Source: Marinobacter halotolerans
Lineage (GTDB): Bacteria > Pseudomonadota > Gammaproteobacteria > Pseudomonadales > Oleiphilaceae
Direction of reading: 5' to 3'
Length of the DNA: 64,000 bases
Assembly (NCBI RefSeq): GCF_008795985.1
Contig: NZ_VMHP01000002.1
Span: 1,178,001-1,242,000, forward strand
The notes beneath the pieces were generated by a model. That model did no database searches. It saw only the letters and a program-made list of their open reading frames with translations, and was not told the origin of the DNA. This document shows, one piece after another, positions 25,432 through 51,041 of the stretch. The position numbers and the translations under genes are program-made. Numbering within the stretch: the first letter of the stretch is position 1; each line of letters begins with the position of its first letter.

Positions 25432-25531
25432 GAGCGAAGAGACCGTTCCGAAACCGTGCGGAGCCATGGATGGCGGAGCCCGAGCGTACAGGGACGTATT
25501 TACAGCGTGTTTCGGAACGGTCTCTTCGCTC
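25432..25531. repeat. Long hairpin, copy 1 of a loop-conserved / stem-variable element
   Basis: Arms 25432-25454 and 25509-25531 are perfectly complementary (23 bp; pairing resumes beyond with a 3-base bulge). The enclosed 54 bases (25455-25508) match the 54-base interior of the second copy at 50961-51014 at 43 positions, with 26 contiguous identical bases including GGAGCCATGGATGGC. The stems of the two copies are unrelated. Inside is a 5-bp hairpin GCCAT-GG-ATGGC and a second one starting GTAC, so the tip forms a small two-hairpin head. It lies inside the predicted htpG 5' leader. Confidence 0.85.
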
Positions 25532-25563
25532 GCTCCTGCACAAAATTTTCAATCTTGGGCAGG

Positions 25564-25591
25564 ATTTGGGGACACCCCCGACGTTTTCAAG
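25564..25591 (-). promoter_or_regulatory. Sigma-32-type heat-shock promoter of htpG
   Basis: On the minus strand: -35 CTTGAAA (25585-25591, exact match to the heat-shock consensus), 13-base spacer, -10 CCCCAAAT (25564-25571, one mismatch to CCCCATNT). It points to htpG about 175 bases downstream, giving a leader of roughly 165 nt that contains the long hairpin. Confidence 0.82.
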
Positions 25592-25610
25592 CCCCGCGAC
25601 TGCGGCAAAT

Positions 25611-26045
25611 TCAGTCTTCCAAAAGGAAGTGAGCCCTGGCAGTAGCAATCGGTTGGGAGCGGGATTTTTGCCATGCGGTGATCATCACATTGGCAACCCG
25701 ATTACCCTGCCGGGTCAACTGGCATTCGGCAAAGGTCTCGCGGTCCAGCCCGGCGCGCAGGTAATCCAGGGAGAAATCCACGATTCTTGGCATGCGCAGA
25801 GTCTCCTGGGCCATCATCAGGTAAATAACCGCCGAAAGCTCCATAAAACCACCGATTACCCCGCCGTGAATCGCCGGGAGTATGGGGTTGCCCAGGTTCT
25901 GTTTTTTGCGGGGCAAACGAAAGATCAGGTCGTCACCAAAGCGGTCGCATTCCAGGCCAATAAACCGGGCGTAGGGAATGCTTTCCAGCATGCGGGAGAA
26001 ATCACCGGTTTCCTGGGTGTACTTGAGGATCTCAGGATTCGTCAT
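25611..26045 (-). CDS. PaaI-type hotdog thioesterase
   Basis: A 144-residue hotdog-fold acyl-CoA thioesterase with the family core [21 protein letters not shown] and the later strand [12 protein letters not shown]. It would hydrolyse acyl- or aryl-CoA in the cytoplasm. Its start overlaps the end of the preceding hotdog gene by 14 bases, so the pair is translationally coupled and may form hetero-oligomers (inference). The DUF599 gene leads the same operon. Confidence 0.87.
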
Positions 26046-26511
26046 CTTCGGCTCCTGTGATCAGGTCCCGGTAGGCCTTGGGGGTGGCATCCTTCCCGAT
26101 GCGCATAAAGGTGCCGACGCAGTTGGCAATGGTTTCGCCCGTGTCCTGATAAGCCTCGCAGCGGGTAAAGATGATGTTTCGGGTGATTTTGTAGGTTTCG
26201 GCCCGTGCGAACACCGGTCGATGAGGTTCCGCCGGGCGCATGTAGTCGACCCGCAGGTCCAGCGTGGGGCACAGCTCGAAATCGTTCAGCGCGCACATGA
26301 TGACCGAGCCGGAGGCCGTGTCCATCAGGGTGGTGATGGCGCCGCCGTGAATCACACCGGTGTCGGGGTTACCCACAATGAAATCGCTGTACGGCAGCCG
26401 GAGGATCAGCTCGCCCTCACGGGCAGATTCAACCGCCAGGCCAAGCTCACAGGCCTGGTTCAGTGTTCCGATAAACCGGCGTACCCGGTCCATTCGCAAA
26501 GAGTCGTTCAT
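26032..26511 (-). CDS. PaaI-type hotdog thioesterase
   Basis: A 159-residue hotdog thioesterase with the catalytic-loop motif NPDTGVIHGGAITTLMDTASG and the beta strand LDLRVDYMRPA. Start 26511 was chosen because it lies one base after the TGA of the upstream DUF599 gene and begins the conserved part. The longer frame upstream would overlap that gene by over 100 bases. It is paralogous to the next gene. Confidence 0.87.
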   Translation of the reverse strand: MNDSLRMDRVRRFIGTLNQACELGLAVESAREGELILRLPYSDFIVGNPDTGVIHGGAITTLMDTASGSVIMCALNDFELCPTLDLRVDYMRPAEPHRPVFARAETYKITRNIIFTRCEAYQDTGETIANCVGTFMRIGKDATPKAYRDLITGAEDDES

Positions 26512-26512
26512 A

Positions 26513-27253
26513 TCAGTCAGAAGCTTTTCCCTTTTCCGTATCGGCTCTGGCCACCGGATCTTCAAATACTTTACCGGCACGCAGGGCCACCAGTGCATCG
26601 GAGCGGAATTCGCGGCGGTACAGAATGATGACAATCAACGTCGACGCCCCGATAAACGCCACCGGGTGTATGAACCACGCCACAACGGCCAGCGCATAGT
26701 AGTAGGAGCGCAGGCCGAGGTTAAAGGCATCGCCGGCTTGGTTGCATACGGTGGCGGCGCTGCGTGCAAAAGCATCCCGGGCGGCAGGGCTGGTTTTGGT
26801 GTCGCCCGCCAGCGGCGCTGCGCCGATCAGCACAGCCAGGAAGTTGTACGTACGCATGGACCAGGTAAATTTGAAAAACGCGTAGATGAAGATAACCATC
26901 AACAGGATCATCCGCATTTCAAACACAGGACGCGACGGCAAAGTACCAAATGGCATGGTGCTGAACACTTCCATCACCTGCTGGGTATAGCCCAGGGCGG
27001 TAATGATACCGGCCAGAATCAGTAGGCAGCTTGACGCAAAGAAGGCGCCATTGCGTTCCAGGTTACCAACCACGGACGCATCGGATATGCGGTTTTCACG
27101 GGACAACATCACTCTCATCCAGTCTGTCCGGTAGAGGTCCAGTGTGTTGGACAGGCAAGGGCGTTTATCCGCTGCGTGTTGGGAGTAGAGACTGTAGCCA
27201 AGCCAGCAGATTAAGAACCAGACCAGAGCGGCCAGTTCGAGATAAATACCCAT
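26513..27253 (-). CDS. DUF599 membrane protein
   Basis: A 246-residue inner-membrane protein with four main hydrophobic segments (starting LAALVWFLICWLGYSLYS; then FFASSCLLILAGIITALG, MILLMVIFIYAFFKFTWS and YYYALAVVAWFIHP). The order and the conserved FKFTWSMRTYNF block match DUF599. The C-terminus is charged and cytoplasmic. It leads an operon with two hotdog thioesterases (one base between stop and next start). Function unknown. Confidence 0.85.
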   Translation of the reverse strand: MGIYLELAALVWFLICWLGYSLYSQHAADKRPCLSNTLDLYRTDWMRVMLSRENRISDASVVGNLERNGAFFASSCLLILAGIITALGYTQQVMEVFSTMPFGTLPSRPVFEMRMILLMVIFIYAFFKFTWSMRTYNFLAVLIGAAPLAGDTKTSPAARDAFARSAATVCNQAGDAFNLGLRSYYYALAVVAWFIHPVAFIGASTLIVIILYRREFRSDALVALRAGKVFEDPVARADTEKGKASD

Positions 27254-27423
27254 TCAGAGTTTCCAGAGGTCAGTCGTCGGATGTTTTGATGTAGCCGTAA
27301 AGGATAACGTATCGGCCTGACAGCCTCCACCAGAGCGCGGTTATTGCGTACATGTCACTGACTGCTGCAGGACTTTGGTATAACCTCTGAAAATAACAGG
27401 ACGAGACCCAGGAGAGGATTCCA

Positions 27424-28704
27424 ATGATGCCCAGACGCTATAAAACCTTTATCGCCGCAATCGTGTCAGCTTTTGCACTGGCGGGCTGCTCGGTAAACCC
27501 GGTCACCGGCGAAAAGCAGTTGTCGCTGATACCTGAAAGCCAGGCGCTGGCCATCGGAGAGGAGCAGTACGAGCCAACGCAACAGACTCAGGGCGGCCGT
27601 TTTTATCTGGACCCGGAGCTCAACCTTTACGTAAAGGAGGTAGGCATGAAGCTGGCCCGGGTGAGCGACCAGCCCGACCTGCCCTACGAGTTTGTGGTAC
27701 TGAACAGCGGCGTACCCAATGCCTGGGCCCTGCCCGGTGGAAAAATCGCAATCAATCGAGGACTGTTGACGGAATTCGACAACGAAGCACAGCTGGCGGC
27801 GGTTCTGGGGCACGAAATTGTTCATGCCGCCGCCATGCACGGGCATCAGCGCATGCAGCAAAGCACTCTCATCAGTCTGGGGGTTGCGGGGTTGGGCTAC
27901 GCCATTTCCGACAATGAATGGTCCAGTCTGATCATGGGCGGCGCTGCGATGGGCGCTCAACTGGCGCTGGCCCAGTATAGCCAGGGCGACGAACTGGAAG
28001 CAGACCGCTACGGCATCCGTTACATGAAAGAAGCAGGCTACGATCCCCAGGCCGCCGTTGAGCTGCAAAAGATTTTCGTGCGCCTGTCCGAAGGGAACAA
28101 TCCCGGTTTTGTGCAAGGGCTATTCGCCACGCACCCGCCGTCAACCAAGCGGGTGCAGGAGAATCAGGAACTGGTCAACAAGATCGGAGCCGGTGGCTAT
28201 ATTGGCCGGGAAACCTACCAGAAAAAACTCTCCTATCTGCGAAGCGTGCAGCCTGCCTATGAAGCCTTTGACCGGGCCCGGGAATTCGCGGGCAATGATC
28301 AGCTCGACAAGGCCATGACCGAAATCAACGAAGCCATCCGCATCGAGCCGGAAGAAGCGGCCTTCTACGCCTTCAGAGGCAAGATTTACCGGGCCCGGAA
28401 ACAGCTTGAACAGGCGGCCGCAGATTTCAACAAGGCCACCTCTCTCTACCCGGAAATGTTTTCGTATCAGCTCAATCAGGGCCTGAACGCTCTGGCACTG
28501 AACAACCTTTCGAAGGCCCGGGAGAGCCTGAACCGCGCCAATGAAGTTGTACCGACTTCCATCGCGTTTCTCCGTCTTGGTGACATTGCCGTGAGACAGG
28601 GCCGCCGGGAGGATGCTATCAACTATTACAGCACCGCGGCCAACGCCAGCGGCGAGGTTGCCGCCGAGGCGAAAAAGAAACTTGCACAGCTGACAGCAAA
28701 CTAG
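27424..28704 (+). CDS. M48 family metalloprotease lipoprotein with TPR repeats (BepA-like)
   Basis: A 426-residue protein: lipoprotein signal with LAGC (cysteine 22), zinc-metallopeptidase domain (about 35-265) with HEIVH at 130-134 and the ExxxD ligand motif in ELEAD (190-194), then about four TPR-like helical repeats (270-420, for example LEQAAADFNKATSLYPE). The layout resembles BepA/YfgC, which oversees outer-membrane protein assembly in the periplasm, though that protein is not usually lipid-anchored. The ribosome site is GGAGAGG. It is transcribed divergently from the DUF599 gene. Confidence 0.88.
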   Translation: MMPRRYKTFIAAIVSAFALAGCSVNPVTGEKQLSLIPESQALAIGEEQYEPTQQTQGGRFYLDPELNLYVKEVGMKLARVSDQPDLPYEFVVLNSGVPNAWALPGGKIAINRGLLTEFDNEAQLAAVLGHEIVHAAAMHGHQRMQQSTLISLGVAGLGYAISDNEWSSLIMGGAAMGAQLALAQYSQGDELEADRYGIRYMKEAGYDPQAAVELQKIFVRLSEGNNPGFVQGLFATHPPSTKRVQENQELVNKIGAGGYIGRETYQKKLSYLRSVQPAYEAFDRAREFAGNDQLDKAMTEINEAIRIEPEEAAFYAFRGKIYRARKQLEQAAADFNKATSLYPEMFSYQLNQGLNALALNNLSKARESLNRANEVVPTSIAFLRLGDIAVRQGRREDAINYYSTAANASGEVAAEAKKKLAQLTAN

Positions 28705-28777
28705 CGTCATTAACTACATTGACTTCTAGAGCAAAAACTCTAAAAATTGGAATACCCAATCAACAAGGAGTTTTGCC

Positions 28778-29326
28778 ATGTTCGCAAAACGTATCCAGCC
28801 GATGGTATTCCAGGCTCGGCGACTTTATGTGGAACTGATGTTTCAGGTTATGGGTCGCGCCCTCCAGGCGGTCAGCGAATTCGATTCGACCGTACAGGCC
28901 GAGGCCCGTTCGCTACCTGAAGGCTTTCTGTTTGAAATGATGGTAATGCCCAACGGCAGCCGAATGATTGTGGAACATACCGGCAACGGTCGCCTCCACT
29001 ACCACGGCGACAAGGCTCCCCGCCCGATTGACCTGTCCATCCAGTTCAAACACGTCGCCCATGCTTTTCTGGTGCTGTCGTTCCAGGAAAAGACCTCGGT
29101 GGCATTTGCCAACGACCGCATGCTGGTGGACGGCGATATCGGCTACGCCGTGCGGATGACCCGGGTTCTGAACCGGCTGGAAGCCTTTATTCTTCCCAAA
29201 CTGGTGGCCGAACGCGCGGTCAAGGAATATCCGGCGTCCCTGCATCTGCCGGAGAAACTGATCAGCGCTGCCCGCATCTATCTGAAAGTCGCCACCAATT
29301 TTGTTGAGACAGCGAGAGCATCATGA
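28778..29326 (+). CDS. SCP2-like sterol/lipid-carrier domain protein (tentative)
   Basis: A 182-residue protein without signal peptide. The middle (about 65-140) has the pattern of an SCP2-like lipid-binding domain (IDLSIQFKHVAHAFLVLSF, then TSVAFANDRMLVDGDIGYAVRM), with helical N- and C-terminal parts. It has a strong AAGGAG ribosome site and overlaps the following alcohol dehydrogenase start by four bases (ATGA). The tight link suggests it presents a lipophilic substrate to, or works with, that enzyme. The family assignment is by pattern and is moderate. Confidence 0.6.
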   Translation: MFAKRIQPMVFQARRLYVELMFQVMGRALQAVSEFDSTVQAEARSLPEGFLFEMMVMPNGSRMIVEHTGNGRLHYHGDKAPRPIDLSIQFKHVAHAFLVLSFQEKTSVAFANDRMLVDGDIGYAVRMTRVLNRLEAFILPKLVAERAVKEYPASLHLPEKLISAARIYLKVATNFVETARAS

Positions 29327-30510
29327 GCAACAAGTACTACGAATTTTTCTGCCCGGTCAAAGTCATTGCGGGTAAAGCCGCACTGGAACATATTCCCTAT
29401 GAACTGACCGGCATGGCCGCAAAGCGCCCCATGATCATTACCGACAAGGGGGTGCGTGCCGCCGGCCTGCTGGAACCGGTGATTGCAGCCTGCGAAGAAA
29501 GCGGCCTGGAAATCGTGAGCATTTACGATGACGTGCCTCCGGATTCCTCTACCGATGTGGTCAGGGACATTGCCGGCATATACCGGAGCGAGAAATGCGA
29601 TTCGCTGATTGCCGTGGGGGGCGGGTCCGCCATCGATACGGCAAAAGCCGTGAATATACTGGTCTCCGAGGGCGGTGATGACATTGCCAAATATAGCGGT
29701 GCCGGCGTTATCAAAAGCCCGCTCAAACCCTTCCTGGTGGTACCAACCACTGCCGGCACCGGCTCGGAAGTGACTTCGGTGGCGGTGATCACCGATACCA
29801 GAAAGTCCGTGAAACTGCCATTCAGCTCGTCATTTCTGCTGCCAAACGCGGCCGTGATTGACCCGCGGATGACGCTGACCCTGCCGCCCCATGTCACTGC
29901 GGCAACGGCCATGGACGCCATGACCCATGCTACGGAAGCTTTTACCTGCATGGCGAAAAACCCGCTGAGTGATGCCTACGCCACTTCTGCCATCAAGAAA
30001 ATCAGCACCCATCTGCTGGCAGTGATGGACAGCCCTAAGGATGCCGATGGCCGCTTGGAGCTTGCCCAGGCCTCCACTATGGCTGGCATTGCCTTTTCCA
30101 ACTCAATGGTAGGGCTGGTGCACGCCCTTGGTCACGCCACGGGCGCTATCTGCCACCTGCCCCACGGCCTGTGTATGAGTCTCTACCTGCCCTACGTGCT
30201 CGAGTACAACCTGGAATCGATCCGCGAGCCGCTGGGTGAACTCCTGCTGTACCTCGATGGGCCGGAAGTATACGCAGCCACGCCGTCGAACCGCCGCGCC
30301 GAAGCAAGCATTGCATCACTGCGCAAACTGCGGGACGAACTGCACAAGCGCTGTAAATTGCCGCGCACCCTTAAAGAAACCGGCAGCGTCACTGAAGACC
30401 AGCTGGAACACATTGCCGAAATGGCCCTGGACGACGGCTCTATCATGTTTAACCCCAAAGAAGTTCTGCTGGAGGACGCCAGGGCTGTCCTGAAACGTGC
30501 CTGGGCGTGA
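29323..30510 (+). CDS. Iron-containing alcohol dehydrogenase
   Basis: A 395-residue group III (metal-dependent) alcohol dehydrogenase. The nucleotide motif is AVGGGSAIDTAKAVN; PTTAGTGSEVTSVAVI is the family signature; the metal ligands lie in DAMTHATEAF and in GLVHALGHATGAICHLPHG. It oxidises alcohols to aldehydes with NAD(P)+. Its start overlaps the stop of the SCP2-like gene. In a marine hydrocarbon-degrading relative it could act on long-chain or lipid-derived alcohols; that is inference from the neighbour. Confidence 0.93.
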   Translation: MSNKYYEFFCPVKVIAGKAALEHIPYELTGMAAKRPMIITDKGVRAAGLLEPVIAACEESGLEIVSIYDDVPPDSSTDVVRDIAGIYRSEKCDSLIAVGGGSAIDTAKAVNILVSEGGDDIAKYSGAGVIKSPLKPFLVVPTTAGTGSEVTSVAVITDTRKSVKLPFSSSFLLPNAAVIDPRMTLTLPPHVTAATAMDAMTHATEAFTCMAKNPLSDAYATSAIKKISTHLLAVMDSPKDADGRLELAQASTMAGIAFSNSMVGLVHALGHATGAICHLPHGLCMSLYLPYVLEYNLESIREPLGELLLYLDGPEVYAATPSNRRAEASIASLRKLRDELHKRCKLPRTLKETGSVTEDQLEHIAEMALDDGSIMFNPKEVLLEDARAVLKRAWA

Positions 30511-30614
30511 AAACCGGGCATTGAAACCGGCGGACCAAAGAAGGACAATCCATAGTTGCTGGCAGGGACCCGCCGGATGAGTGAGACACGTTCATCAATC
30601 AGAGCCAATCGCCT

Positions 30615-31382
30615 ATGGTTAGTCCCCGACCCAATTCGTGGTTTGTCCTTCTTGTTTTCAGTTTTATGCTTCCCGCCTTTGCCGTTGCGGAGACCGGGGC
30701 TACTGACACCAAAGTTCTTCGCTTCAACGTCTCCCCCAACGGCTATCCCCCTTACCTGATCACTGACGGCGAACAGACCTCTGGCATCATGTGGACCGTG
30801 CTTGAGGAAATCGCGGGACGCCTCGGTTATCAGTTGGAAGCACAGAAGGTACCGCGCAAGCGGGTAGATCAGATGTTGCTGGAGGGGTTTATTGATGGCA
30901 CCTCCCGGGCAAAAGAGTGGACCAGCCGCCCGGAAGACTTTGTTTTTACGGACCCGATAGTCACCATTGAAGAAGTGGTGTTTTTCCCTTCCGGCTCACC
31001 TCACGATTTCGAAGTCGTTGAAGATCTTTTCTCACTCACGCTGGTCACCCATCTCGGCTACCACTACCCGACGCTGAAACCTCATTTCGAGTCCGGCAGG
31101 ATTGAGCGATTCGATGTGGCCCGGGATCAGGATCTTTTCGTCTACGTACTGAAAGGTGATGGACTGGATGCCGCTGTTGCCGATCGTCTTGTTGGCCAAT
31201 GGATTCTGTTTACCAAAGACATGCGGGACCGGTTCCGTGCCAGCGAAGCAACGCTGAGCGAAGTGGGCTTCCGGATCATGCTGCGGCCCGAGTGGCAGTC
31301 CTTTGCCACGGCCTTCAACAGGGAATTGGCTTCCATGCGACAGAACGGCGAAATTGAGGCCATTCTGGCGCAGTATCGTTAA
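30615..31382 (+). CDS. Orphan periplasmic solute-binding protein (SBP family 3)
   Basis: A 255-residue periplasmic protein with a signal peptide (cleavage near AVAET). The binding-protein fold shows NVSPNGYPPYLITDGEQTSGI and later VTHLGYHYPTL, SGRIERFDVA and FNRELASMRQNGEIEAILAQY. No transporter genes are adjacent. The ribosome site before ATG 30615 is weak. It resembles the orphan at 16325-17194 in architecture rather than close sequence. Confidence 0.8.
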   Translation: MVSPRPNSWFVLLVFSFMLPAFAVAETGATDTKVLRFNVSPNGYPPYLITDGEQTSGIMWTVLEEIAGRLGYQLEAQKVPRKRVDQMLLEGFIDGTSRAKEWTSRPEDFVFTDPIVTIEEVVFFPSGSPHDFEVVEDLFSLTLVTHLGYHYPTLKPHFESGRIERFDVARDQDLFVYVLKGDGLDAAVADRLVGQWILFTKDMRDRFRASEATLSEVGFRIMLRPEWQSFATAFNRELASMRQNGEIEAILAQYR

Positions 31383-31410
31383 CGAACGTCTTCGTTAATA
31401 GCCCATTGCT

Positions 31411-33897
31411 CTACTCCAGTCTTCTGAGCAGGAGCATGGGGGAAACACTCAATACCGGTTTGAGCTGCCAGCGACCAAAGAGCGCAAGCACCAACGCACT
31501 CACCACGGGTATGGGCAGAATGGCCTGCCAGTGCCAGCGGAACTCCCCTTCAAACATCCTGAACTGCAGAGCCCAGACGGCAGCTTCCGCCGCTGCCACG
31601 CCCAGAACTCCCGCAAAGAAGCCCAGGAACGCGAATTCCAGCATAGTGCTACGCACGAGCAGCGACTGGCGCCCGCCCAGGGTTCTGAGCAGCGCGCCCT
31701 CTCGCTGACGCTCCTGCATGGTGGCGCTGACCACTGCCGCCATCACCACCAACGCCGCAGCGAGAATAAGCGCAAGAATGGCTTCTATCGCCTGGGTCAC
31801 CTGGCGGACGATCTCCTGGATGCGTTCAATGATGTTATCGATGGCCAGCACGGACACGGTCGGAAACTTGCGGGAGAACTCGTTGAGCGCACCCTTCTGA
31901 TCCTTGGGCAGGTAGAAGGCCGTTATCCAGGTTGCAGGCATGTTTTCCAGCCCGCCACCCGGAGGAAACGCCATGTAGAAGTTGGGCTTCATACTGTCCC
32001 ACTGCACCGTGCGGATGCTGGTCACCGGTTCGGTGACCTTGTCCGAGCCAATGGTGAATGTGAGTTCGTCCCCCACCTGGATGCCGAGTTTACCGGCCAG
32101 CTCTGCTTCGATAGACACACCACTGGTCTGTGAGGGCTTGAACCACTGCCCGCTGACAATCTCATTGTCGTTGGGCAGATCTCCCATCCAGGTCAGGTTA
32201 AGCTCCCGGTTCAGGGCACCTACCCGCTCCTCCTTGGTGACGGCTTCCCTGACTGGGTTACCGTTAAGCTCGGTAAAGCGTCCCCGTACCATCGGGTAGA
32301 CCTGTTTCAGAGGCTGGCCGCGCTCGGCCCAGAACTGCTCCACTTCATCCACTGCTTCCGGCGCAATATTGATCAGAAAGTGATTTGGGGTGTCTTCCGG
32401 AAGCTGAGCCTGCCAGTCATCCAGCAGGGACGTTCGTACCAGAATCAGTGTGGCCGCCAGCATCAGTGTCATTGCGAATACGGCAATCTGAGACAGGCTC
32501 GCGCGGCGGTGCCGGTACAGCCCCACCAGGGCCAGCCGCCAGGCATTTCCGCCACCGCTTATTTTCCGCAGTGTGCTGACCAGAACCCAGCCCAGCAATG
32601 CCAGTGTGCCCAGCAACAATGCCAGCCCGCCCAGCAGGGACAGCACAAGGGAGACTTCTCGGGCATAGAGCCAGACCAGCCCGAATATCGCGACAATGGC
32701 AATTACCATATCGGGAATGGCTTCCCGCCCGGCTTCGCCCGGCTGGCTTCTCAGCACCCGCATCGCCGGCACGTTTTTCAGGCGGCGAATAGGTGGGTAA
32801 GCGAACGCGAAGAGCGAGACCAGCGCCGTCAGCAGCGCCGGTACCAGCGCATTTGGGTCCAGCTGATAGTCGATTTCCTGCTCCAGCACATCCCCCAACA
32901 CACTGGTGAGCAGCCAGTATAGCGGCAGAGCCACCACCAGCCCGCCAATAGCGCCGGCCAGCCCCCAGAGTCCCAGCCGTCTGACATAAAGCCGGCCGAT
33001 ACCCTGGCTGTTCACGCCCAGGGTTTTGAGCAGCGCCACGGTGTCCCGCTGGGACAGGGCGTATTGCCGACTGGCGACCGCTACTGCCACAGCGGCAAGC
33101 ATGACCGCCAGGCTTCCCCCCAGTAACAGGAAACGCTCCGCCCGCTCCAGGGATTCGGAGAAGGTCTCACCGTCTCTCACGCCTTCCCACTCATGACTGG
33201 CAGTGAGTTTCGGTTCCAGCCAACTGTAATAACCCTCCAGGGCTTCCTGCTCGCCGGCGAACAGGTAAACGTATTCGACCCGGCTTCCCTCCTTGATAAC
33301 TTCGGTAGACGGCACATCGCTCGCGTGCATCATCACCCGGGGGGCAAGGGCCGACATATTGAAACCGCCATCCGGCTCCCTTACCAACAGCCCGGACACA
33401 GTCAGGGACCGGCTGCCCACATCCAGGGAATCGCCGACCTCAAGGTCCAGCAGGCGTAACAGTCGCGGATTGATCCAGACTTCACCAGGCACGGGCCCGT
33501 TTGCAACCAGTTGCCTTGGCGCATCGCTGCTTTGCTGGATTTCCAGCTGCCCCCTGAGCGGATAGGCATCACTGACCGCTTTTACCGACACCAGCTGAAA
33601 GTCATTGGCGCCGTAGACCATGGTAGAGAACTCCACCATCCTGGCGGTTTCAAGACCGCGTTGCTGGGCCTCGTCGATCCAGGTCTGGGGTACCTCCCGG
33701 CCGTTTTCCGCCTCCAGCTGACGATCTGCGGCAAGAAAGGAGCTGGCCGATGTTACCAGTGTGCGTTGCAACTGGCTGGCGAACAGGGCAATGGTGGCAA
33801 CCGTCGCCACGGCAATGATCAGTGCGGAGAGGACCACGCGCACATCCCGCTCGCGCCAGTCCCGACGCACCGACATGAGTTTCCGGGAAGCCGCCAT
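31411..33897 (-). CDS. ybbP: ABC transporter permease, FtsX-like (YbbP)
   Basis: An 828-residue membrane protein with the duplicated FtsX architecture: an N-terminal helix (VVLSALIIAVATVATIALF), a large periplasmic domain, four helices, a repeat of the unit, and a C-terminal helix set. It pairs with the ATPase gene that overlaps its start by one base (TGATG). The set ybbA-ybbP divergent from tesA is widely conserved in gammaproteobacteria. The complex probably moves lipids or lipoproteins from the inner membrane; the cargo is unknown. Confidence 0.9.
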   Translation of the reverse strand: MAASRKLMSVRRDWRERDVRVVLSALIIAVATVATIALFASQLQRTLVTSASSFLAADRQLEAENGREVPQTWIDEAQQRGLETARMVEFSTMVYGANDFQLVSVKAVSDAYPLRGQLEIQQSSDAPRQLVANGPVPGEVWINPRLLRLLDLEVGDSLDVGSRSLTVSGLLVREPDGGFNMSALAPRVMMHASDVPSTEVIKEGSRVEYVYLFAGEQEALEGYYSWLEPKLTASHEWEGVRDGETFSESLERAERFLLLGGSLAVMLAAVAVAVASRQYALSQRDTVALLKTLGVNSQGIGRLYVRRLGLWGLAGAIGGLVVALPLYWLLTSVLGDVLEQEIDYQLDPNALVPALLTALVSLFAFAYPPIRRLKNVPAMRVLRSQPGEAGREAIPDMVIAIVAIFGLVWLYAREVSLVLSLLGGLALLLGTLALLGWVLVSTLRKISGGGNAWRLALVGLYRHRRASLSQIAVFAMTLMLAATLILVRTSLLDDWQAQLPEDTPNHFLINIAPEAVDEVEQFWAERGQPLKQVYPMVRGRFTELNGNPVREAVTKEERVGALNRELNLTWMGDLPNDNEIVSGQWFKPSQTSGVSIEAELAGKLGIQVGDELTFTIGSDKVTEPVTSIRTVQWDSMKPNFYMAFPPGGGLENMPATWITAFYLPKDQKGALNEFSRKFPTVSVLAIDNIIERIQEIVRQVTQAIEAILALILAAALVVMAAVVSATMQERQREGALLRTLGGRQSLLVRSTMLEFAFLGFFAGVLGVAAAEAAVWALQFRMFEGEFRWHWQAILPIPVVSALVLALFGRWQLKPVLSVSPMLLLRRLE

Positions 33898-36397: not shown

Positions 36398-36473
36398 TCC
36401 CCGATAGCTCAGTTGGTAGAGCAACGGACTGTTAATCCGTTTGTCGCTGGTTCGAGCCCAGCTCGGGGAGCCA
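36398..36473 (+). tRNA. tRNA-Asn (GUU), copy 1
   Basis: A 76-base tRNA with encoded CCA. Acceptor TCCCCGA pairs with TCGGGGA; the D arm has AGCTCAGTTGGTAGAGC; the anticodon loop CTGTTAA is enclosed by ACGGA/TCCGT; the T arm contains GGTTCGAGCC. Anticodon GTT decodes AAC/AAT. It is identical over its length to the copy at 50776-50851. Downstream only a weak AT-rich palindrome (36491-36504, at the apeB stop) could end transcription. Confidence 0.97.
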
Positions 36474-41919: not shown

Positions 41920-41925
41920 GCCCGG

Positions 41926-42951: not shown

Positions 42952-43356
42952 AAAATGCCTCGCTGACTGGAACGAGGCGGAGTATACCGAATCTTTTACA
43001 GCGCATCTTCCTAGAGAACGAATGTGACGGTGAAATGTCTGTTCCATGAAGGTGTTGTGATCTTTTCCACGGAATCTGTGGATAACCCTGTTGAAAATTG
43101 CGGGGCAACGCTGTCCAACCCTTGATATCCGCGCCAGTCTACAGATTGATTATTTTTTAACCAGTTATTTTTTCATTTATTATCAGTAGCTTATAAAGTG
43201 TTTGCCGAAAATTGTCGCGAAAATGACACAAACAGTTACGTCAGGGCGCAACCTCCAGCATGTGCATAAATCGCACAATGCCTGTTCGTTGATCCTTTTG
43301 GTAACACCCAGGAAAATAGGGGCTATACTGATTCTCAAATTCCGCGAGACTTTTTA
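42952..43356. other. Intergenic region between pyrD and the cation diffusion facilitator gene
   Basis: 405 bases, divergent, with an AT-rich core (43141-43200) of long T and A runs suggestive of bent DNA or IHF/Fis sites. A perfect DnaA-box-like nonamer TGTGGATAA lies at 43077-43085, single and so probably chance. A good -10 hexamer TATACT at 43324-43329 sits 28 bases before the facilitator start, but its best -35 (TTGGTA) is at a 20-base spacing. No gene was seen. Confidence 0.5.
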
Positions 43357-44520
43357 ATGAATAACCCCCTGACCCCGCCCTCCGATCGTCAGAGTCAGCT
43401 CAGTGTAGAGCGGTCAGAAGCAACCAGAATCACCGTAGTAGGAATGATACTCGATGCGTTTCTTGGTGTCCTTAAGGTTATTACGGGCCTGTTTTTTCAC
43501 TCCCAGGCGCTGATTGTCGACGGCATACATTCCTTCAGCGATGTCGCTTCCGATCTGGTCGTCATTGGCGTAATGCGAATGTCCCGCCAGGAACCGGATC
43601 AGGATCACCCTTACGGCCACCAAAGAATCGAAACCCTCGGCACCATGATCCTGGGCAGCATACTGATTGCCGTTGGCGCCGCCCTGGCCTGGGACAACAC
43701 CCTGCGCCTGCTGAACCCCGCCGCAGCGATCCTTCCAGAATGGCCCATCCTGGTGGCTGCCTTGATCTCCGTATTGAGCAAGGAATGGATCTACCGATAC
43801 ACCCGGCGGGTGGGGCTGGCGATCCGTTCCGATCTGATCGTCGCCAATGCCTGGCACAGCCGCACGGATGCTTTTTCCTCCGTTGTGGTTCTGGCATCAA
43901 CCGCCGGCGCCATGATGGGCTACCTCTGGCTGGATATTCTGGCGGCTATCATTATCTCGATAATAATCGTGCATATTGGCTGGAAATTTACCTGGGACAG
44001 CGTGAAAGAACTGGTGGACACCGGTCTCTCCCCGGAAGAAACGGAACTTTTGCGGAATACCGCCATGACCATCGAAGGCGTCCGGGATGTGCATGAATTG
44101 CGCAGCCGACGCATGGGACAGGACATCCTGCTGGATATTCATCTGGTGGTACGACCCGAAATCAGCGTTTCCGAGGGCCACCAGATCGGCATGAACGTCG
44201 CCGCTGCTATGCGGGGCGCCATGGACAACATTCTGGACATCAACTTCCATGTGGATGCCGAGCGGGATGACGATCAGGCACCAACGTCAGAGGAATTACC
44301 AGATCGCGAAAAAGTACGGCAGGTACTTCAGAAACAGCTGCCGGTGGACCTGCCGCCCAACAGCCGGATTCGACTGCACTACCTGAAAAATCACGTTCAC
44401 ATGGAACTATTTCTGGAGGCTGATCAGGAACACCAGTTACCGGATGCCCCCACCCTCAATCAGCGAATGCAGGACTACACCTGGTTTGGCAGCCTGCGTA
44501 TCTGGTATTCCCGATCCTGA
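43357..44520 (+). CDS. Cation diffusion facilitator (CDF) metal transporter
   Basis: A 387-residue CDF protein with six membrane helices in the first 210 residues. The zinc-site HxxxD motifs are in helix 2 (DGIHSFSDVASD) and helix 5 (NAWHSRTDAFSS), and HPYGHQRIETLG is the family signature. A cytoplasmic ZT-dimer domain follows, plus an extra C-terminal segment of about 80 residues. It exports Zn2+, Fe2+, Mn2+ or a similar ion in exchange for protons; specificity is not evident. Its stop lies 20 bp from the convergent RimK-like gene. Confidence 0.9.
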   Translation: MNNPLTPPSDRQSQLSVERSEATRITVVGMILDAFLGVLKVITGLFFHSQALIVDGIHSFSDVASDLVVIGVMRMSRQEPDQDHPYGHQRIETLGTMILGSILIAVGAALAWDNTLRLLNPAAAILPEWPILVAALISVLSKEWIYRYTRRVGLAIRSDLIVANAWHSRTDAFSSVVVLASTAGAMMGYLWLDILAAIIISIIIVHIGWKFTWDSVKELVDTGLSPEETELLRNTAMTIEGVRDVHELRSRRMGQDILLDIHLVVRPEISVSEGHQIGMNVAAAMRGAMDNILDINFHVDAERDDDQAPTSEELPDREKVRQVLQKQLPVDLPPNSRIRLHYLKNHVHMELFLEADQEHQLPDAPTLNQRMQDYTWFGSLRIWYSRS

Positions 44521-44540
44521 GCGCGGAACGATTCCGGCGC

Positions 44541-46040
44541 TTAACGGCGCCGGTTGGCCTCCATGCGGGACAAAAATTCCTGCATGATCAGGGTGTAAAG
44601 CTCGCCGCCAAGGAATCCGTCTTCCACATCTGAATCAATGCTCGGGTTGTCATTCACTTCGATCACCGCCACGCGATTGCCTGACTGTTTGATGTCCACG
44701 CCGTAAAGCCCGTTACCGATCAGCCTGGTCGCATTCAGAGCGGCCTGAATCACATTCTTCGGCACCTCGTAGGTCGGCATGGTTTCAAAACCGCCGCTGT
44801 CCACTTCAGTGCCGCCATGCTGGTAAATCTGCCAGTGGCCTTTAACCATGAAGTACTTGCAGGCGTAGATGGCCCGTCCACCCAGTACGCCAATACGCCA
44901 GTCGTAATCGGTGTAAAGATATTCCTGGGCCAGCACCAGTGCCGACTGTTTGAACAGGGCCTTCAGCCCGTCTTTCAGAGACTTTTCGTCTTCGGCTTTG
45001 GTCACGCCGCGGGAAAAGGCGCCATCTGGAATCTTGATGACTGCCGGGAAGCCGATCTCGCGAATCACCTGTTCGGCGCTGTCCTTCTGGTCCTTCGACA
45101 GAATCAGGGTTTTCGGCGTGGGCACCTTGTTGTTCTTCAGCAAATCCGCCAGGAAGACCTTGTTGGTGCAACGCAGAATGGAAACCGGGTCATCAATCAC
45201 CACCATACCTTCGGCCTCCGCCTTACGGGCGAAGCGGTAGGTGTGATGGTCAATGGCTGTGGTCTCACGAATAAACAGGCCGTCGTATTCCGGCAGGCGC
45301 ATGTAGTCCCGACGGTTGATCTGCTCAACATTGATACCCAGTTTGCGCCCCGCTTTTTCGAAGCGGTCCAGAGCCACCTTGTCGCTGGGCGGCATTTCCT
45401 CTTCCGGGTTGACCAGCATGGCCAGGTCGAAGCGATAGCGGCGGCGAGCCCTTGGCTTGCGCCACACCATGCTGCTGAAACGGTCGAAGGCTGCCGCAAA
45501 GTGATCCTGCTCTTCGCCCTTCAAATCCGCGGGGCAGCCTGGTTTCATGGAAACGATCTGCCAGGTTTTGCGACGACGGAAAACGATCTCGAGAACCGGA
45601 CAGGGAAAACGATCAAAAAGCGCCCGGGCGACCGGCTTGAGCTCGGAGGTTTCGGCCTGGCCAAAATAGGTCTTGATTCTGACTTCGTGGGTGGCCTGTT
45701 TGTCGTCCTTGTCCGGACTGATCTCGGCGCCGGATGCTTCCAGCCACTGCAGCACGCTATCGTCCAGTTCTTCCAGCTGAAGCGAGAACAGCCCCTTCCG
45801 GCTCAGGTCGTTCAGCGTCATGACAGAAGGAACCACGTTGTGTCCCCGGGCCTCTGCAAGCAAAGAACAGTAGTAGCCGCGGCTCAGATAGCGAGCGCTC
45901 TGGCACAGGTTGATCACCCGGGTGCGGCTGTTGGGAGAGACGGACAACTGGAGGTACTGATCAAAGGTCAGCACATCCTCGCTCGGATAGTAAGGCGCCC
46001 AGTCTTTCTCTCGGTCTACTACAATCAGTAATCGGGACAT
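44541..46040 (-). CDS. RimK-like ATP-grasp amidoligase with RLAN N-terminal domain
   Basis: A 499-residue protein. Residues about 30-185 match the RimK-like ATP-grasp N-terminal (RLAN) region, and about 215-490 form a RimK-type ATP-grasp: YDGLFIRETTAIDHHTYRF, the lysine loop FPAVIKIPDGAFSRGV, YTDYDWRIGVLGG, and the metal motif EVNDNPSIDSDVE. Such enzymes join an amino acid, often glutamate, to a carboxyl group using ATP. True RimK, about 300 residues, modifies S6; this longer type is distinct, with unknown substrate. It is divergent from a GNAT/C39-peptidase fusion (175 bp between starts), a pairing recorded for predicted peptide-modification systems. A hairpin overlaps its stop (44534-44553). 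Confidence 0.88.
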   Translation of the reverse strand: MSRLLIVVDREKDWAPYYPSEDVLTFDQYLQLSVSPNSRTRVINLCQSARYLSRGYYCSLLAEARGHNVVPSVMTLNDLSRKGLFSLQLEELDDSVLQWLEASGAEISPDKDDKQATHEVRIKTYFGQAETSELKPVARALFDRFPCPVLEIVFRRRKTWQIVSMKPGCPADLKGEEQDHFAAAFDRFSSMVWRKPRARRRYRFDLAMLVNPEEEMPPSDKVALDRFEKAGRKLGINVEQINRRDYMRLPEYDGLFIRETTAIDHHTYRFARKAEAEGMVVIDDPVSILRCTNKVFLADLLKNNKVPTPKTLILSKDQKDSAEQVIREIGFPAVIKIPDGAFSRGVTKAEDEKSLKDGLKALFKQSALVLAQEYLYTDYDWRIGVLGGRAIYACKYFMVKGHWQIYQHGGTEVDSGGFETMPTYEVPKNVIQAALNATRLIGNGLYGVDIKQSGNRVAVIEVNDNPSIDSDVEDGFLGGELYTLIMQEFLSRMEANRRR

Positions 46041-46215
46041 CAGTGGTGTTCCTTCCTTGATAATGGTCGCAACAATAGCCCGTAAATCAGTAACTCACAA
46101 CGATGCACCGGTGCGTGTTTCTACTCACGCCGGCGGATCTTGCGCATCTGCAGGATTGCCCCATACTACGCCGGCAACTGCTTCTGTCTAGCAGGGCTTA
46201 TAAGGTCATTCGTAA

Positions 46216-47334
46216 ATGGATCAGGTTCAGTATCGTCAGGCAAGCGCTCAGGATCTCGACGCACTGGTTGCGCTCGAGAATCGCTGCTTTTCTGAAGACC
46301 GACTGTCCCGCCGAAGCTTTCGGCGTTTTCTGGATATGCCCCGGGATCGTCTGGTTGTCGCGCAAACGGCAGAAGGCCTGGTGGGCTATTGCCTGGTACT
46401 GATGAGCGCCGCCACACGTCTGGCCCGAATATACTCCATTGCGGTTTTGCCGTCGGAGCGGGGCCGGGGCGTGGGCGAACGGTTGATCGCCGAGGCAGAA
46501 AAAGTCGCGGTCAACGCAGGCCGGATTATCATGCGTCTGGAGGTCCGGGAGGATAACGCCGGCGCGATCAAGCTTTACCGGCGGCTTGGCTATCGCCAGT
46601 TCGGCACCTATCGTGACTATTATGAAGACCACGCCAACGCTATCCGGTTTGAACGGCGTATTCTTTTCTACGAGCCGTCCCACGATTTCCCGGCGGTGCC
46701 CTACTATCCCCAGACAACCGAATTTTCCTGCGGCCCGGCGGCTCTGATTATGGCGATGGCGGCCATGGACGAACACGCCACCATGACCACGATTGAAGAG
46801 CTGCGAATCTGGCGGGAAGCCACCACCATTTTCATGCTGGCCGGTCACGGCGGCTGCGGCCCCCATGGTCTCGCCCTGGCGGCCTGGAAGCGTGGATATC
46901 ACGCCAGCGTTTATATCAGCAAGGAAGGCGCCCTGTTCAAGGATACCGTGCGCAATGACGACAAGAAGCGCGTGCTGGAACTGGTCCACGAGGGCTTTAT
47001 TCACGATATGGCGCAGACCGGCATCCAGTTGCACCACGATCCGCTGTCTCTGGAGGGCATGAAAGCCGCTCTGGAAGACGGACGAGTGCCGGTCATCCTG
47101 ATCAGTACCTGGCAGCTCAACCGCAGCCGCGTACCCCACTGGGTAACGGTCTGCGCCATTGATGATCAGTTCGTATATCTGCACGACCCGGAAATCGACA
47201 CCGACCTGGGCGAGACCGTGGCCGACAAACAGTACTTGCCGATTGACCGGCGGGTGTTTGACCGCATGTCCCGCTATGGCCGCAACCAGCCACTCCAGGC
47301 GGCGGTAATTATCGGGCCCAGGCGCAAGGACTAA
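46216..47334 (+). CDS. GNAT acetyltransferase fused to C39-like papain-fold peptidase
   Basis: A 372-residue two-domain protein. Residues 3-150 are a GNAT domain with the acetyl-CoA loop RGRGVGERL near 82-90 and the terminal GNAT motif [16 protein letters not shown]. Residues about 157-370 are a C39-like cysteine peptidase domain: Cys172 in [12 protein letters not shown], His308 in VPHWVTV and Asp324 in LHDPE, a complete triad. There is no ABC transporter or double-glycine leader gene nearby, so it is not a bacteriocin exporter. With the divergent RimK-like ligase it may build and trim or acylate a peptide or amide. Its last four bases overlap the end of uvrB. Confidence 0.88.
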
Positions 47335-49391
47335 CCGGTCCGGATTGCCGCTTCTTTCAGTTCGGCAATTTCGTCCCGTAGCCTGGCGGCTTTCTCGAAA
47401 TCCAGATCCGAGGCCGCCTTGTACATATCGTCCTCCAGCTTGCCCAGGTCCTTGAGAATCTGCTCCGGTGATTTTTCGCCGATTTTGGTGCGGTAGCGTT
47501 CTGCTTCCTCGGCCGCTTTTTCGCCAGGTCTCTCGGGCTTGCGACGTCCGCGGCCGCCGCTGCTGGCGCCTTCCATGATATCGGCAATCTTCTTGTTCAG
47601 TCCCGTGGGCGTGATGCCATGGGCTTCGTTATGCTCGGCCTGCTTGGCCCGGCGGCGTTCCGTTTCATCAATCGCCCGCTGCATAGAACCGGTTATGCGG
47701 TCACCGTAAAGAATAGCCTTGCCGTTAATGTTCCGGGCAGCCCGGCCCATGGTCTGGATTAGCGACCGGTCAGAGCGCAGGAAACCCTCTTTGTCGGCGT
47801 CCAGAATGGCCACCAGCGAGACTTCCGGCATATCCAGACCTTCCCGCAGCAGGTTGATGCCCACCAGAACGTCAAACTCGCCCCGGCGCAGATCCCGGAT
47901 GATCTCCACCCGCTCCACGGTATCAATGTCGGAGTGCAGGTATCGCACGCGGATATCGTGTTCCATCAGGAAGTCAGTCAGATCCTCCGCCATCCGCTTG
48001 GTCAACGTGGTGACCAGCACCCGCTCGCCAACTTCGGTGCGCAGCTTGATCTCTGACAGCAGATCATCCACCTGAGTCGAAGCCGGCCGGACTTCAATTT
48101 CCGGATCCAGCAGCCCGGTGGGCCGGACTACCTGCTCTACCACCTGGCCTGCATATTCCGCTTCGTATTTACCGGGGGTTGCCGATACGAACACCATCTG
48201 CGGGGCGATGCGTTCCCATTCATCAAAACGCATGGGCCGGTTATCAAGGGCGGACGGCAGGCGGAAGCCGTATTCCACCAGGGTTTCCTTCCGGGACCGG
48301 TCACCCTTATACATGGCGCCGATCTGGGGAATGGTGACGTGGGATTCGTCCACCACCAGCAGAGCATTGGGTGGCAGGTAATCAAACAGCGTCGGCGGCG
48401 CTTCGCCGGGCTGACGCCCCGACAGATAGCGGGAGTAGTTCTCGATGCCGTTGCAGTAACCCAGCTCCAGCATCATCTCGATATCATATCGGGTGCGTTC
48501 TTCCAGCCGCTGAGCCTCGACCAGACGATTATTGTCCCGGAGCTGTTTCAGACGCTGATCCAGTTCTACCTTGATGTTTTCCACTGCATCGAGCACCTTT
48601 TGGCGCGGCGTGACGTAGTGGGACTTGGGATAGATGGTTACCCGTGGCACCCGGCGCAGGATCTCACCAGTCAGGGGATCGAAATAGCTGAGGTTTTCCA
48701 CCTCGTCATCGAACAGCTCGATCCGGATGGCCTCTTTTTCTGATTCTGCTGGGAACACATCAATGACGTCGCCACGAACGCGATAGTTGGCGCGGTGGAA
48801 TTCAACGTCATTGCGGGTGTATTGCAGCTCTGCCAGGCGGCGCAGAATATCCCGCTGGTCAATCTCGTCGCCCCGGTCCAGGTGCAGCATCATCTTCAGG
48901 TAGGACTGGGGATCGCCCAGGCCGTAGATGGACGACACTGTGGCCACAATGATCGCATCCGGCCGCTCCAGAAGCGCCTTGGTGGCGGACAGGCGCATCT
49001 GCTCGATGTGTTCGTTGATCGACGCGTCCTTTTCAATAAAGGTATCCGACGACGGCACATAAGCTTCCGGCTGGTAGTAGTCGTAATAGGACACGAAGTA
49101 CTCAACCGCGTTGTCCGGAAAGAATTCCCTGAATTCCCCGTAAAGCTGGGCCGCCAGAGTCTTGTTATGCGCCATGATGATGGTCGGCCGCTGTATCTGC
49201 TCGATCACATTGGCGATAGTGAAGGTCTTGCCGGACCCGGTGACACCCAAAAGGGTCTGATGGGCCAGGCCGGAATGAATGCCCTCCACCAGTCCCTCAA
49301 TCGCTTTAGGCTGGTCACCAGCGGGCTCGAACGGTGAGGCAACGGTAAACGCCCCGTCTTTCCTGTGCGCGCCTTTTTCTGAAGTCGCCAT
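47331..49391 (-). CDS. uvrB: Excinuclease ABC subunit B
   Basis: A 686-residue UvrB. Walker [11 protein letters not shown] (49-58), the DNA-gripping beta-hairpin region [18 protein letters not shown], helicase motifs including [15 protein letters not shown] and QTMGRAARN, and the C-terminal UVR domain [18 protein letters not shown] that binds UvrC. It verifies damage in nucleotide excision repair. No LexA-like operator was found in the 130 bp upstream. Confidence 0.97.
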
Positions 49392-49521
49392 ACGAATGCG
49401 GCATCCTCTGATCTGTTTAAGTGGGGTCTGGCCGGGTGAAAACCGTCGAGAAACTTATCGTTGCAATGGCATCATGGTAACATCTGATCCATTCATCGCC
49501 GCAGCTTTAAGGAGCGCAAGT

Positions 49522-50706
49522 TTGGACCTTCAACTATCCAGCCGAGTACAGGCAATCAAGCCCTCTCCAACTCTCGCCGTTACCAACAAGGCCGCAGAAC
49601 TGCGTGCCGCAGGCCAGGACATTATCGGCCTGGGCGCTGGTGAGCCTGATTTCGATACGCCGGACCACATCAAGGAAGCGGCCATCGAAGCCATCAAGGC
49701 AGGGCAAACCAAGTACACCGCCGTTGATGGTACGCCTGCACTGAAAAAGGCGATCATTGCCAAGTACAAACGGGACAATGGCCTGGATTACGAAGCCAAC
49801 CAGATCCTGGTAAGCAGTGGTGGCAAACAGAGCTTTTTCAACCTCGCCCTGGCAACTTTGAACAAGGGCGACGAAGCCATTATCCCGGCGCCCTACTGGG
49901 TGTCCTACCCGGACATGGTGCTGGTAGCCGAAGGCAAGCCGGTAATTATCGAAACCGGCCCTGAGACCCGCTTCAAAATAACGCCGGAACAGCTGGAAAG
50001 CTCGATCACCGATCGCACCCGTCTATTCGTGATCAATAGCCCGTCCAACCCCAGCGGTATGGCCTACACCCTGGAAGAGCTTCAGGCCATTGGTGAAGTG
50101 CTGAAAAAGCACCCTCAGATCATGATCGCCACCGACGACATGTACGAACCAATCCTGTGGACCGGCGCGGCCTTCTGCAACATCCTGAACGCCACACCGG
50201 AGCTTTACGACAGAACCTTTGTGCTTAACGGTGTGTCCAAGGCCTATTCCATGACCGGCTGGCGCATCGGCTACGCCGCGGGCCCGGCGAAGATCATCGG
50301 CGCCATGAAAAAGATCCAGTCCCAGAGTACTTCGAACCCGTCGTCCATTTCCCAGGCTGCCGCCACGGCCGCCCTGGATGGCCCGCAGGATTGTGTGCAA
50401 GAGATGGTCACCGCGTTCAAGGAGCGTCACGATTATCTGGTTGCAGCGCTGAATGAGCTCCCCGGTGTGGAGTGCCTGGTTGGCGACGGTACGTTCTATG
50501 TCTTCCCCAGCTTCCAGGGCGCCATCGACGCGGATTCGGCAGTCAGCAATGACGTTGAGTTTGCGGAAAAGCTGCTCAAAGATGCCGGCGTTGCGCTGGT
50601 GCCAGGCTCAGCTTTTGGCGCGCCAGGTCACATGAGACTGAGCTTTGCAACCAGCATGGACAACCTGAAGCAGGCGATTTCACGCCTGAAAAAAGCCCTT
50701 GGCTAA
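49522..50706 (+). CDS. Class I aspartate/aromatic-type aminotransferase
   Basis: A 394-residue fold-type I PLP aminotransferase of the AAT-I-beta kind: SRVQAIKPSPTLAVTNKAAELRAAGQDII, GAGEPDFDTPDHIKEAA, the PLP lysine in LNGVSKAYSMTGWRIGY, and the carboxylate-binding Arg in HMRLSFATS. It most likely makes or uses aspartate and glutamate with 2-oxoacids. The TTG start at 49522 has AAGGAG seven bases upstream; an upstream ATG (49474) lacks a ribosome site. It is divergent from uvrB. Confidence 0.92.
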   Translation: MDLQLSSRVQAIKPSPTLAVTNKAAELRAAGQDIIGLGAGEPDFDTPDHIKEAAIEAIKAGQTKYTAVDGTPALKKAIIAKYKRDNGLDYEANQILVSSGGKQSFFNLALATLNKGDEAIIPAPYWVSYPDMVLVAEGKPVIIETGPETRFKITPEQLESSITDRTRLFVINSPSNPSGMAYTLEELQAIGEVLKKHPQIMIATDDMYEPILWTGAAFCNILNATPELYDRTFVLNGVSKAYSMTGWRIGYAAGPAKIIGAMKKIQSQSTSNPSSISQAAATAALDGPQDCVQEMVTAFKERHDYLVAALNELPGVECLVGDGTFYVFPSFQGAIDADSAVSNDVEFAEKLLKDAGVALVPGSAFGAPGHMRLSFATSMDNLKQAISRLKKALG

Positions 50707-50722
50707 AATTTGAATCAGAGGG

Positions 50723-50751
50723 TTGACGGGGCCGCGGGGTAATCTTAATAT
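50723..50751 (+). promoter_or_regulatory. Sigma-70 promoter of the second tRNA-Asn gene
   Basis: TTGACG (50723-50728), 17-base spacer, TAATAT (50746-50751), then the GC-rich discriminator ACGCGCC. The hexamers and spacing equal those of the first tRNA-Asn promoter, although the spacer sequences differ. Confidence 0.88.
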
Positions 50752-50775
50752 ACGCGCCTCGTCTAAAGACGACGT

Positions 50776-50851
50776 TCCCCGATAGCTCAGTTGGTAGAGC
50801 AACGGACTGTTAATCCGTTTGTCGCTGGTTCGAGCCCAGCTCGGGGAGCCA
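50776..50851 (+). tRNA. tRNA-Asn (GUU), copy 2
   Basis: A 76-base tRNA with encoded CCA, identical to the copy at 36398-36473 and with the same acceptor, D, anticodon (GTT) and T arms. It has its own promoter and strong terminator, so it is a single-gene unit. There is no integrase or att-like duplication beside it. Confidence 0.97.
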
Positions 50852-50861
50852 CTATTCCGAA

Positions 50862-50895
50862 AAGCCGCTAGTCCTCTGGATTAGCGGCTTTTTTT
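50862..50895 (+). terminator. Rho-independent terminator of tRNA-Asn copy 2
   Basis: A 13-bp stem (AAGCCGCTA-G-TCC with GGA-T-TAGCGGCTT, one G-U pair) and a TCT loop, followed by a run of seven T counting from the stem end. Confidence 0.93.
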
Positions 50896-50933
50896 GTTCC
50901 TGGGTTCTTGCGTGATATCCGAGAGGTCCAAAC

Positions 50934-51041
50934 GGTGTGGTGGGGCCTCACTCACAAAAATGTGCGGAGCCATGGATGGCGGAGCCCAAGCGCACATGGA
51001 TGTGCTCGTCGCGTTTTTTGTGAGGGAGGCCCCACCACACC
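50934..51041. repeat. Long hairpin, copy 2 of a loop-conserved / stem-variable element
   Basis: Arms 50934-50960 and 51015-51041 pair over 27 positions with one mismatch. The 54-base interior (50961-51014) is the same length as in copy 1 and identical at 43 positions. It holds two small hairpins, GCCAT-GG-ATGGC and GCACAT-GG-ATGTGC. In the second, one base pair is C-G here and T-A in copy 1, a compensating change. It lies between the tRNA terminator and the 3' end of pyrF, in the same plus-strand orientation as copy 1. Confidence 0.85.

Follow-up and report, generated by a model that had tools for sequence, protein, structure and literature searches.

Repetitive extragenic palindromic (REP) elements have stems that are conserved in sequence, and their copy number is tied to the RAYT/Y1 transposase. 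Integron attC sites combine a variable tip with a conserved base, and CsrB/CsrC and RsmX/Y/Z are one to a few small RNA (sRNA) genes. According to the accessible part of PMC4005645, a Csr/Rsm target of high affinity presents an ANGGAX hexaloop immediately on top of a stem, and its N and X bases are looped out. The TwoAYGGAY RNA (RF01731), which appears in a table in the accessible part of PMC2864571, is proposed in that of PMC4333381 as a CsrA-binding RNA with a poorly conserved external stem. Herein, we analyzed two long hairpins in a 64,000-nt stretch of the Marinobacter halotolerans genome (contig NZ_VMHP01000002.1, positions 1,178,001 to 1,242,000; the window), both of which carry a conserved two-hairpin head on a stem of their own. 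With moderate confidence, we interpret the dispersed hairpins of this kind as a spreading, multi-copy branch of TwoAYGGAY-type RNA that offers predicted CsrA/RsmA docking or decoy sites at gene 3′ ends.

A conserved two-loop head on unrelated stems

The initial annotation had described the two hairpins as sharing a head but not a stem, and this description was borne out in detail. The arms pair over 23 bp without mismatch and over 27 bp with one, at exactly the positions listed in Table 1. Both heads are 54 nt long and identical at 43 of the 54 positions, with a longest identical run of 26 nt (25456-25481), whereas the arms of copy 1 and copy 2 are unrelated (best ungapped identity 0.43-0.44). 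Two small hairpins were recovered in the head of each copy, together with the compensating change at interior pair 33/44, which is T-A in one copy and C-G in the other. When single strands were folded, for both strands, both copies formed one long stem, with z values of -7.4 to -8.7 against dinucleotide shuffles.

The tip loops were then compared in 87 copies outside the genus (34 of 37 and 53 of 68 rows of two locus sets, also used for the G-T counts below). These loops read A-N-G-G-A-Y, in which A, G, G, and A are near-fixed and N is free. For the two hairpins, respectively, 79 and 80 of the 87 copies have T or C as the final loop base, and 76 and 84 have C-G as the closing pair. Both head hairpins are intact in 62 of the 87 copies, compared with 4 of 1740 shuffled interiors. 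Because the loci were picked by a hairpin-2 pattern and the model used, R1, was made in this analysis from Marinobacter heads, the conservation of hairpin 2 is partly built in; the locus-selection pattern does not contain hairpin 1. The tip loops agree with the published CsrA/RsmE criterion of an ANGGAX hexaloop directly on a stem, and the variable loop bases correspond to those that are looped out in the CsrA/RsmE complex. Two AYGGAY-type hairpins on one stem are likewise found, with AGGGAC as the second loop of copy 1, so that the motif is ANGGAY rather than AYGGAY.

To define copies uniformly, a 22-nt core with at most one mismatch was searched in 58 genomes, M. halotolerans included, and the same pattern reversed served as the control. 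The M. halotolerans genome (3.78 Mb) contains 31 core copies and no match to the reversed control. Core-positive genomes numbered 33 of 58 and all belonged to one genus (33 of 37 there versus 0 of 21 elsewhere), with 0-53 core copies per genome within it, and many Marinobacter records carry the same pattern. Long paired arms were present in 30 of the 31 M. halotolerans copies, the remaining one pairing over 9 bp, and in 115 of the 117 distinct elements collected across the genus; stems are about 23-31 bp long in M. halotolerans and longer elsewhere. The 31-nt core region has a mean identity of 94% among these 31 copies, compared with 41% for the 5′ arms over 30 nt (highest 0.67), and the arm pairing score is 24.2 for a copy's own arms versus 6.4 for 930 between-copy swaps. 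One stem sequence common to the copies, or paired arms in only a few of them, had been named beforehand as the mark of ordinary repeats or chance; neither was seen in this genome. The claim that stems are unrelated between copies therefore stands for M. halotolerans, but it fails in G148, where amplified copies have one common stem.

Table 1. Positions of the two hairpin elements and their parts in the window
Feature	Position	Strand	Remark
Copy 1, whole hairpin element	25432..25531	+	Between htpG (-) and thioesterase-family gene (-)
Copy 1, 5′ arm, 23 nt	25432..25454	+	Perfect pairing with 25509-25531
Copy 1, conserved head, 54 nt	25455..25508	+	
Copy 1, head hairpin 1, GCC-AUGGAU-GGC	25463..25474	+	
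Copy 1, head hairpin 2, loop AGGGAC on GUAC/GUAU	25486..25499	+	
Copy 1, 3′ arm	25509..25531	+	
Copy 2, whole hairpin element	50934..51041	+	Between tRNA-Asn (+) and pyrF (-, 51092-51832)
Copy 2, 5′ arm, 27 nt	50934..50960	+	One mismatch with 51015-51041
Copy 2, conserved head, 54 nt	50961..51014	+	
Copy 2, head hairpin 1, GCC-AUGGAU-GGC	50969..50980	+	
Copy 2, head hairpin 2, GCAC-AUGGAU-GUGC	50992..51005	+	
Copy 2, 3′ arm	51015..51041	+	

Within the window, R1 matched just these two copies (E up to 1). The window holds two tRNA-Asn(gtt) genes, at 36398-36473 and 50776-50851, and copy 2 comes after the second. Rfam microRNA matches of copy 2 and a Ysr224 match of copy 1 were discarded, as they were below cut-off and typical of any long hairpin.

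Selection on pairing of the head strand

Two causes had been offered in the initial annotation for stems that are rewritten yet still paired, namely strong selection on structure or a mechanism copying one arm onto the other. From the 115 paired genus elements, 52 non-redundant copies (5′ arms under 75% alike over 20 nt) were aligned in paired register; the alignment was cut to 20-nt arms in that register and is hence biased towards the stem. Standard pairs made up 97.2% of its pair cells. Covariation was 0.695, compared with 0.181 (standard deviation 0.009) in shuffled alignments and 0.097-0.130 in slid ones, and 428 cells were changed on both sides versus 111 in shuffles. By a weaker measure, the number of pairs with any both-sided change, the value was 24 versus 20.6 when shuffled and was matched by 5 of 500 shuffles.

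Considering that a G-T pair on one strand reads A-C on the other, the ratio of the two identifies the head strand as the folding strand. In columns 1-22 of the 52 non-redundant stems, a hand count gave 26 G-U and 6 A-C. When orthologues were included, genus elements had 128 G-T and 21 A-C, and outside the genus the counts were 97 and 43 (p 6e-6; 11 of the 87 rows lack a clear stem). For the M. halotolerans copies, the ratio was 17:2 with a co-directional upstream gene and 7:2 otherwise. The excess of G-T over A-C, together with the covariation, indicates that the pairing of the head strand is under selection and renders arm-copying superfluous.

Orthologous sites revealed how the stems change. 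The htpG site was found in 60 of 61 genomes, and 30 loci plus 20 further stretches were inspected, with some genomes in both. Elements occupy one or both of two divergent positions at this site; flanks and head are kept, and both stem sides are rewritten in step. Across bins of 0.2-0.6 fourfold divergence (21 and 20 elements at the two positions), the number of pairs changed on both sides, out of 18, increased from 2.0 to 7.6 at one position and from 4.0 to 7.7 at the other, whereas one-sided changes amounted to 0.7-1.5 of 18 pairs. Intermediate as well as compensated pair states are present among these orthologues. An apparent replacement of the whole stem at low divergence (G032 versus G035) was discounted, since the G032 upstream flank resembles G018/G073 by eye and interspecies recombination may explain the case. 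By eye, about 100 nt of additional hairpins interrupt the loop of head hairpin 1 in three congeners (L127, L131, and L134 in G034, G008, and G072), and one of these hairpins has an ANGGAY loop, so the head can grow; in G027 the outer arms alone remain.

At the glcE-glcF site, named from sub-cut-off scores of partial proteins, the best 30 loci of 61 genomes were inspected and 29 were resolved. The element is present in 16 of the 29 species, and in the other 13 only 2-21 nt separate stop from start. Filled sites comprise 11 single sense elements, 1 single antisense element, and 4 (-,+) pairs. Empty sites have neither arm, so that stem and head are either both there or both missing. Six orthologues contain 151 Watson-Crick, 7 G-U, and 2 other pairs, and seven comparisons gave 2-6 double and 1-4 one-sided changes among 26-27 pairs. 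Copies of AATCA may flank the filled site in G036 (by eye), and no target duplication was seen at the other sites. In L358 and L359 (G007 and G024), the stretch immediately 3′ of the stem, TCACTTGTGCTCCAAA, is tandemly duplicated.

These data bear on quasi-palindrome correction by template switching, which would maintain complementarity without function. Near-perfect stems are what it would produce, and so is the pattern at 0.3-0.4 fourfold divergence in which 5.8 and 6.9 of 18 pairs are doubly changed with about 1 of 18 changed on one side. However, it predicts equal numbers of G-T and A-C, unlike all three sets of counts above, the one-sided differences at the glcE-glcF site do exist, and the head loops are fixed though they have no partner to copy. 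Some orthologous stems are also unchanged at 0.26-0.36 fourfold divergence, although interspecies recombination may explain this. We therefore regard arm-to-arm copying as very improbable. Of the two causes originally offered, selection is supported by the covariation, by G-T counts 2 to 6 times those of A-C, and by the intermediate and compensated states of orthologues, while arm-copying is unnecessary but may contribute to a minor extent.

Placement, spread, and distribution of the elements

The placement of the elements was determined relative to genes. In M. halotolerans, 9 are convergent, 12 tandem sense, 5 tandem antisense, and 5 divergent, based on crude open reading frame (ORF) calls that place four elements within predicted ORFs. 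In 104 rows from outside the genus, with two rows omitted as opposite-strand readings of a hairpin already counted, single copies were convergent in 26 cases, tandem sense in 13, tandem antisense in 10, and divergent in 1, with 8 unassigned, and 22 elements fell inside ORFs of the crude caller. Among the 43 singles with a same-strand upstream gene, 32 start within 60 nt past its stop. The shortage of divergent positions and this closeness to stop codons would suit terminators or stabilizers of mRNA 3′ ends between convergent genes, with the head as a mere stable cap. Nevertheless, a scan found no terminator-like site at either window copy, although its 3-8 nt loop limit makes it blind to a 54-nt head, and by eye no T-run was seen after the stems. 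A terminator would not need a fixed two-hairpin head, and the glcE-glcF element sits between two genes of one enzyme. This explanation is thus improbable.

The other explanation to be weighed is a selfish DNA repeat resembling REP elements or miniature inverted-repeat transposable elements. A transposase or other DNA-binding protein would recognize the head of its one folded strand, the stem would be selected for pairing alone, and the CsrA likeness would be incidental. Of 30 pairs of neighboring copies, 22 are (-,+), 8 have the same orientation (5 of them in one tandem array), and none is (+,-), which favors such a repeat, as do the filled and empty states of the glcE-glcF site. By eye, the hairpin in G148 (L291-L302) forms the centre of a unit about 250 bp long that is bounded by outer inverted repeats and of which 12 near-identical copies were seen, which points the same way; in L294 and L302 the repeat centre is inverted relative to its flanks. 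The strand and promoter results given in the next section also agree with it. On the other side, PF01797 (Y1 transposase) is absent in 9 of 23 genus genomes, 7 of which carry 8-29 copies (the remaining two, G011 and G016, have 0 and 3), whereas G004 has 22 PF01797 matches yet just 6 copies. Y1/RAYT mobilization as a general mechanism was rejected, as PF01797 and copy number are not correlated. The coincidence of the variable loop positions with those looped out in the CsrA/RsmE complex also speaks against an incidental likeness. No stem is common to any two of the 31 M. halotolerans copies, and there is thus no sign of recent transposition in this genome. Taken together, a selfish repeat is possible but rather unlikely.

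Further arrangements were observed in individual genomes. L336:688-2052 (G530) is a tandem array in which a 227-bp unit, combining the element with a separate REP-like hairpin, occurs six times, and the spacers of the (-,+) pairs in L340-L349 (G637) hold AAAAGC-rich stretches and further palindromes.

R1 extended the distribution beyond the genus. It matched 47 of 274 gammaproteobacterial genomes (42 of 222 genera), 18 of them with at least 10 matches when at most 15 candidates per genome were scored, and the carriers include Rheinheimera, Stenotrophomonas, Halopseudomonas, Microbulbifer, Cellvibrio, and Aquisalimonas. Among 398 genomes drawn from the phylum, 28 were matched, all in the same class, a restriction limited by the fact that the share of this sample outside the class is not shown. 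In E. coli, the element occurs in 5 of 5426 genomes. Three examined cases, an E. coli chromosome and plasmids from waste water (L311, L312, and L313), have one element each on one shared piece, which carries alcohol dehydrogenase and threonine ammonia-lyase genes and adjoins IS5/IS26-type elements. Plasmid and phage searches with a 48-nt query at E 1e-3 were negative but weak, given that the E. coli plasmid matches came at 5e-3.

Predicted CsrA/RsmA docking and comparison with known systems

As judged from sequence, CsrA/RsmA docking is the best fit for a head strand that is selected to fold and carries CsrA-type loops. The head strand would be transcribed, by read-through or from promoters invisible to the scan, and the long stem would present the two ANGGAY loops side by side at its tip, where one CsrA/RsmA dimer could clamp both. 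Each copy may then act as a docking or decoy site, and copies just past a stop codon may additionally protect or control the mRNA upstream of them. Transcription, CsrA/RsmA binding, the decoy effect, and the way in which copies spread are inferred. csrA itself is present in M. halotolerans and in 57 of the 58 genomes searched, and the CsrB (RF00018) and RsmZ (RF00166) models matched 0 of 19 genomes over cut-off, both of which favor this interpretation.

Several observations weigh against this interpretation. The presence of csrA is not discriminating, because the 21 other-genus genomes without the core also have it. The RF01731 scores of the window copies, 17.4 and 25 bits, are below the cut-off of 43, and of 12 loci returned by RF01731, R1 matched 3 clearly, 1 weakly (23.4 bits), and 8 not at all. 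Between tandem genes, 25 sense versus 15 antisense elements (p 0.15) give no significant bias towards either strand, and this makes a purely 3′ untranslated region reading less convincing. The head strand of copy 1 is antisense to both of its neighbors, a terminator-like site (50859-50893) lies between tRNA-Asn and copy 2, and a promoter scan found no sigma-70 promoter-like site in 25300-25700 or 50800-51200. The excess of G-T would fit an RNA or a single-stranded DNA fold alike, and a decoy role would not require so long and perfect a stem. In addition, RsmZ matches below cut-off occurred in 5 of the 19 genomes, that of M. halotolerans included, and the negative for such sRNAs covers the CsrB and RsmZ models, not RsmX and RsmY.

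If CsrA/RsmA binds the tips, a bacterium would hold 30-50 unannotated genomic docking sites, at positions differing among species. The orphan TwoAYGGAY motif would then be explained, and the family would represent repeats shaped by an RNA-binding protein. A bolder and more doubtful extension is a mobile, multi-locus titration system, in which tens of predicted two-loop sites at gene 3′ ends would come and go in the manner of a transposable repeat. In many Gammaproteobacteria, they might together determine the level of free CsrA/RsmA or link transcription at each locus to the Csr network, replacing dedicated CsrB/RsmZ sRNAs or acting beside them. Apart from this, the rewritten yet paired stems are a clean natural data set for compensatory evolution.

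Compared with REP elements, their bacterial interspersed mosaic element (BIME) arrangements, and REPINs, the hairpins are likewise intergenic, multi-copy, and accompanied by inverted neighbors. However, the 5′ arms of the 31 M. halotolerans copies have a mean identity of only 0.41, in line with the earlier remark that the stem is not conserved as in REP, and copy number is not correlated with Y1 transposases. As with attC sites, a folded strand, and not the sequence of its stem, might be what is recognized, but the pattern is reversed, with the tip conserved and the stem variable. CsrB/CsrC and RsmX/Y/Z resemble the elements in having several ANGGA hairpins able to hold CsrA/RsmA dimers, whereas here dozens of scattered two-loop elements sit on rewritten stems. 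The three CsrA-sequestering sRNAs of Alteromonas are, in the accessible part of PMC5864184, a different arrangement from dispersed hairpins. Literature searches on TwoAYGGAY, Marinobacter hairpins and CsrA, CsrA sponges and repeats, Rsm hairpins, palindromic elements, and sequence words, covering few subscription papers, found no dispersed multi-copy elements alike.

The closest likeness is to TwoAYGGAY, in which two neighboring hairpins with AYGGAY-type loops likewise top a long outer stem whose sequence varies. The initial annotation knew of no named family with this pattern; RF01731 has this architecture, although the window copies remain under its cut-off. One M. halotolerans copy listed at E up to 1e-3 reaches 37.1 bits with RF01731. 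RF01731 matches 18 of the 274 class genomes, 13 over cut-off and five with at least 9 matches, and these 18 genomes overlap with the 47 R1 genomes in 4 of 274. Nevertheless, four R1 matches in three genomes (L152, L319, L322, and L323) pass the RF01731 cut-off with 44.6-55.0 bits, and the R1 family and TwoAYGGAY look like branches of one kind.

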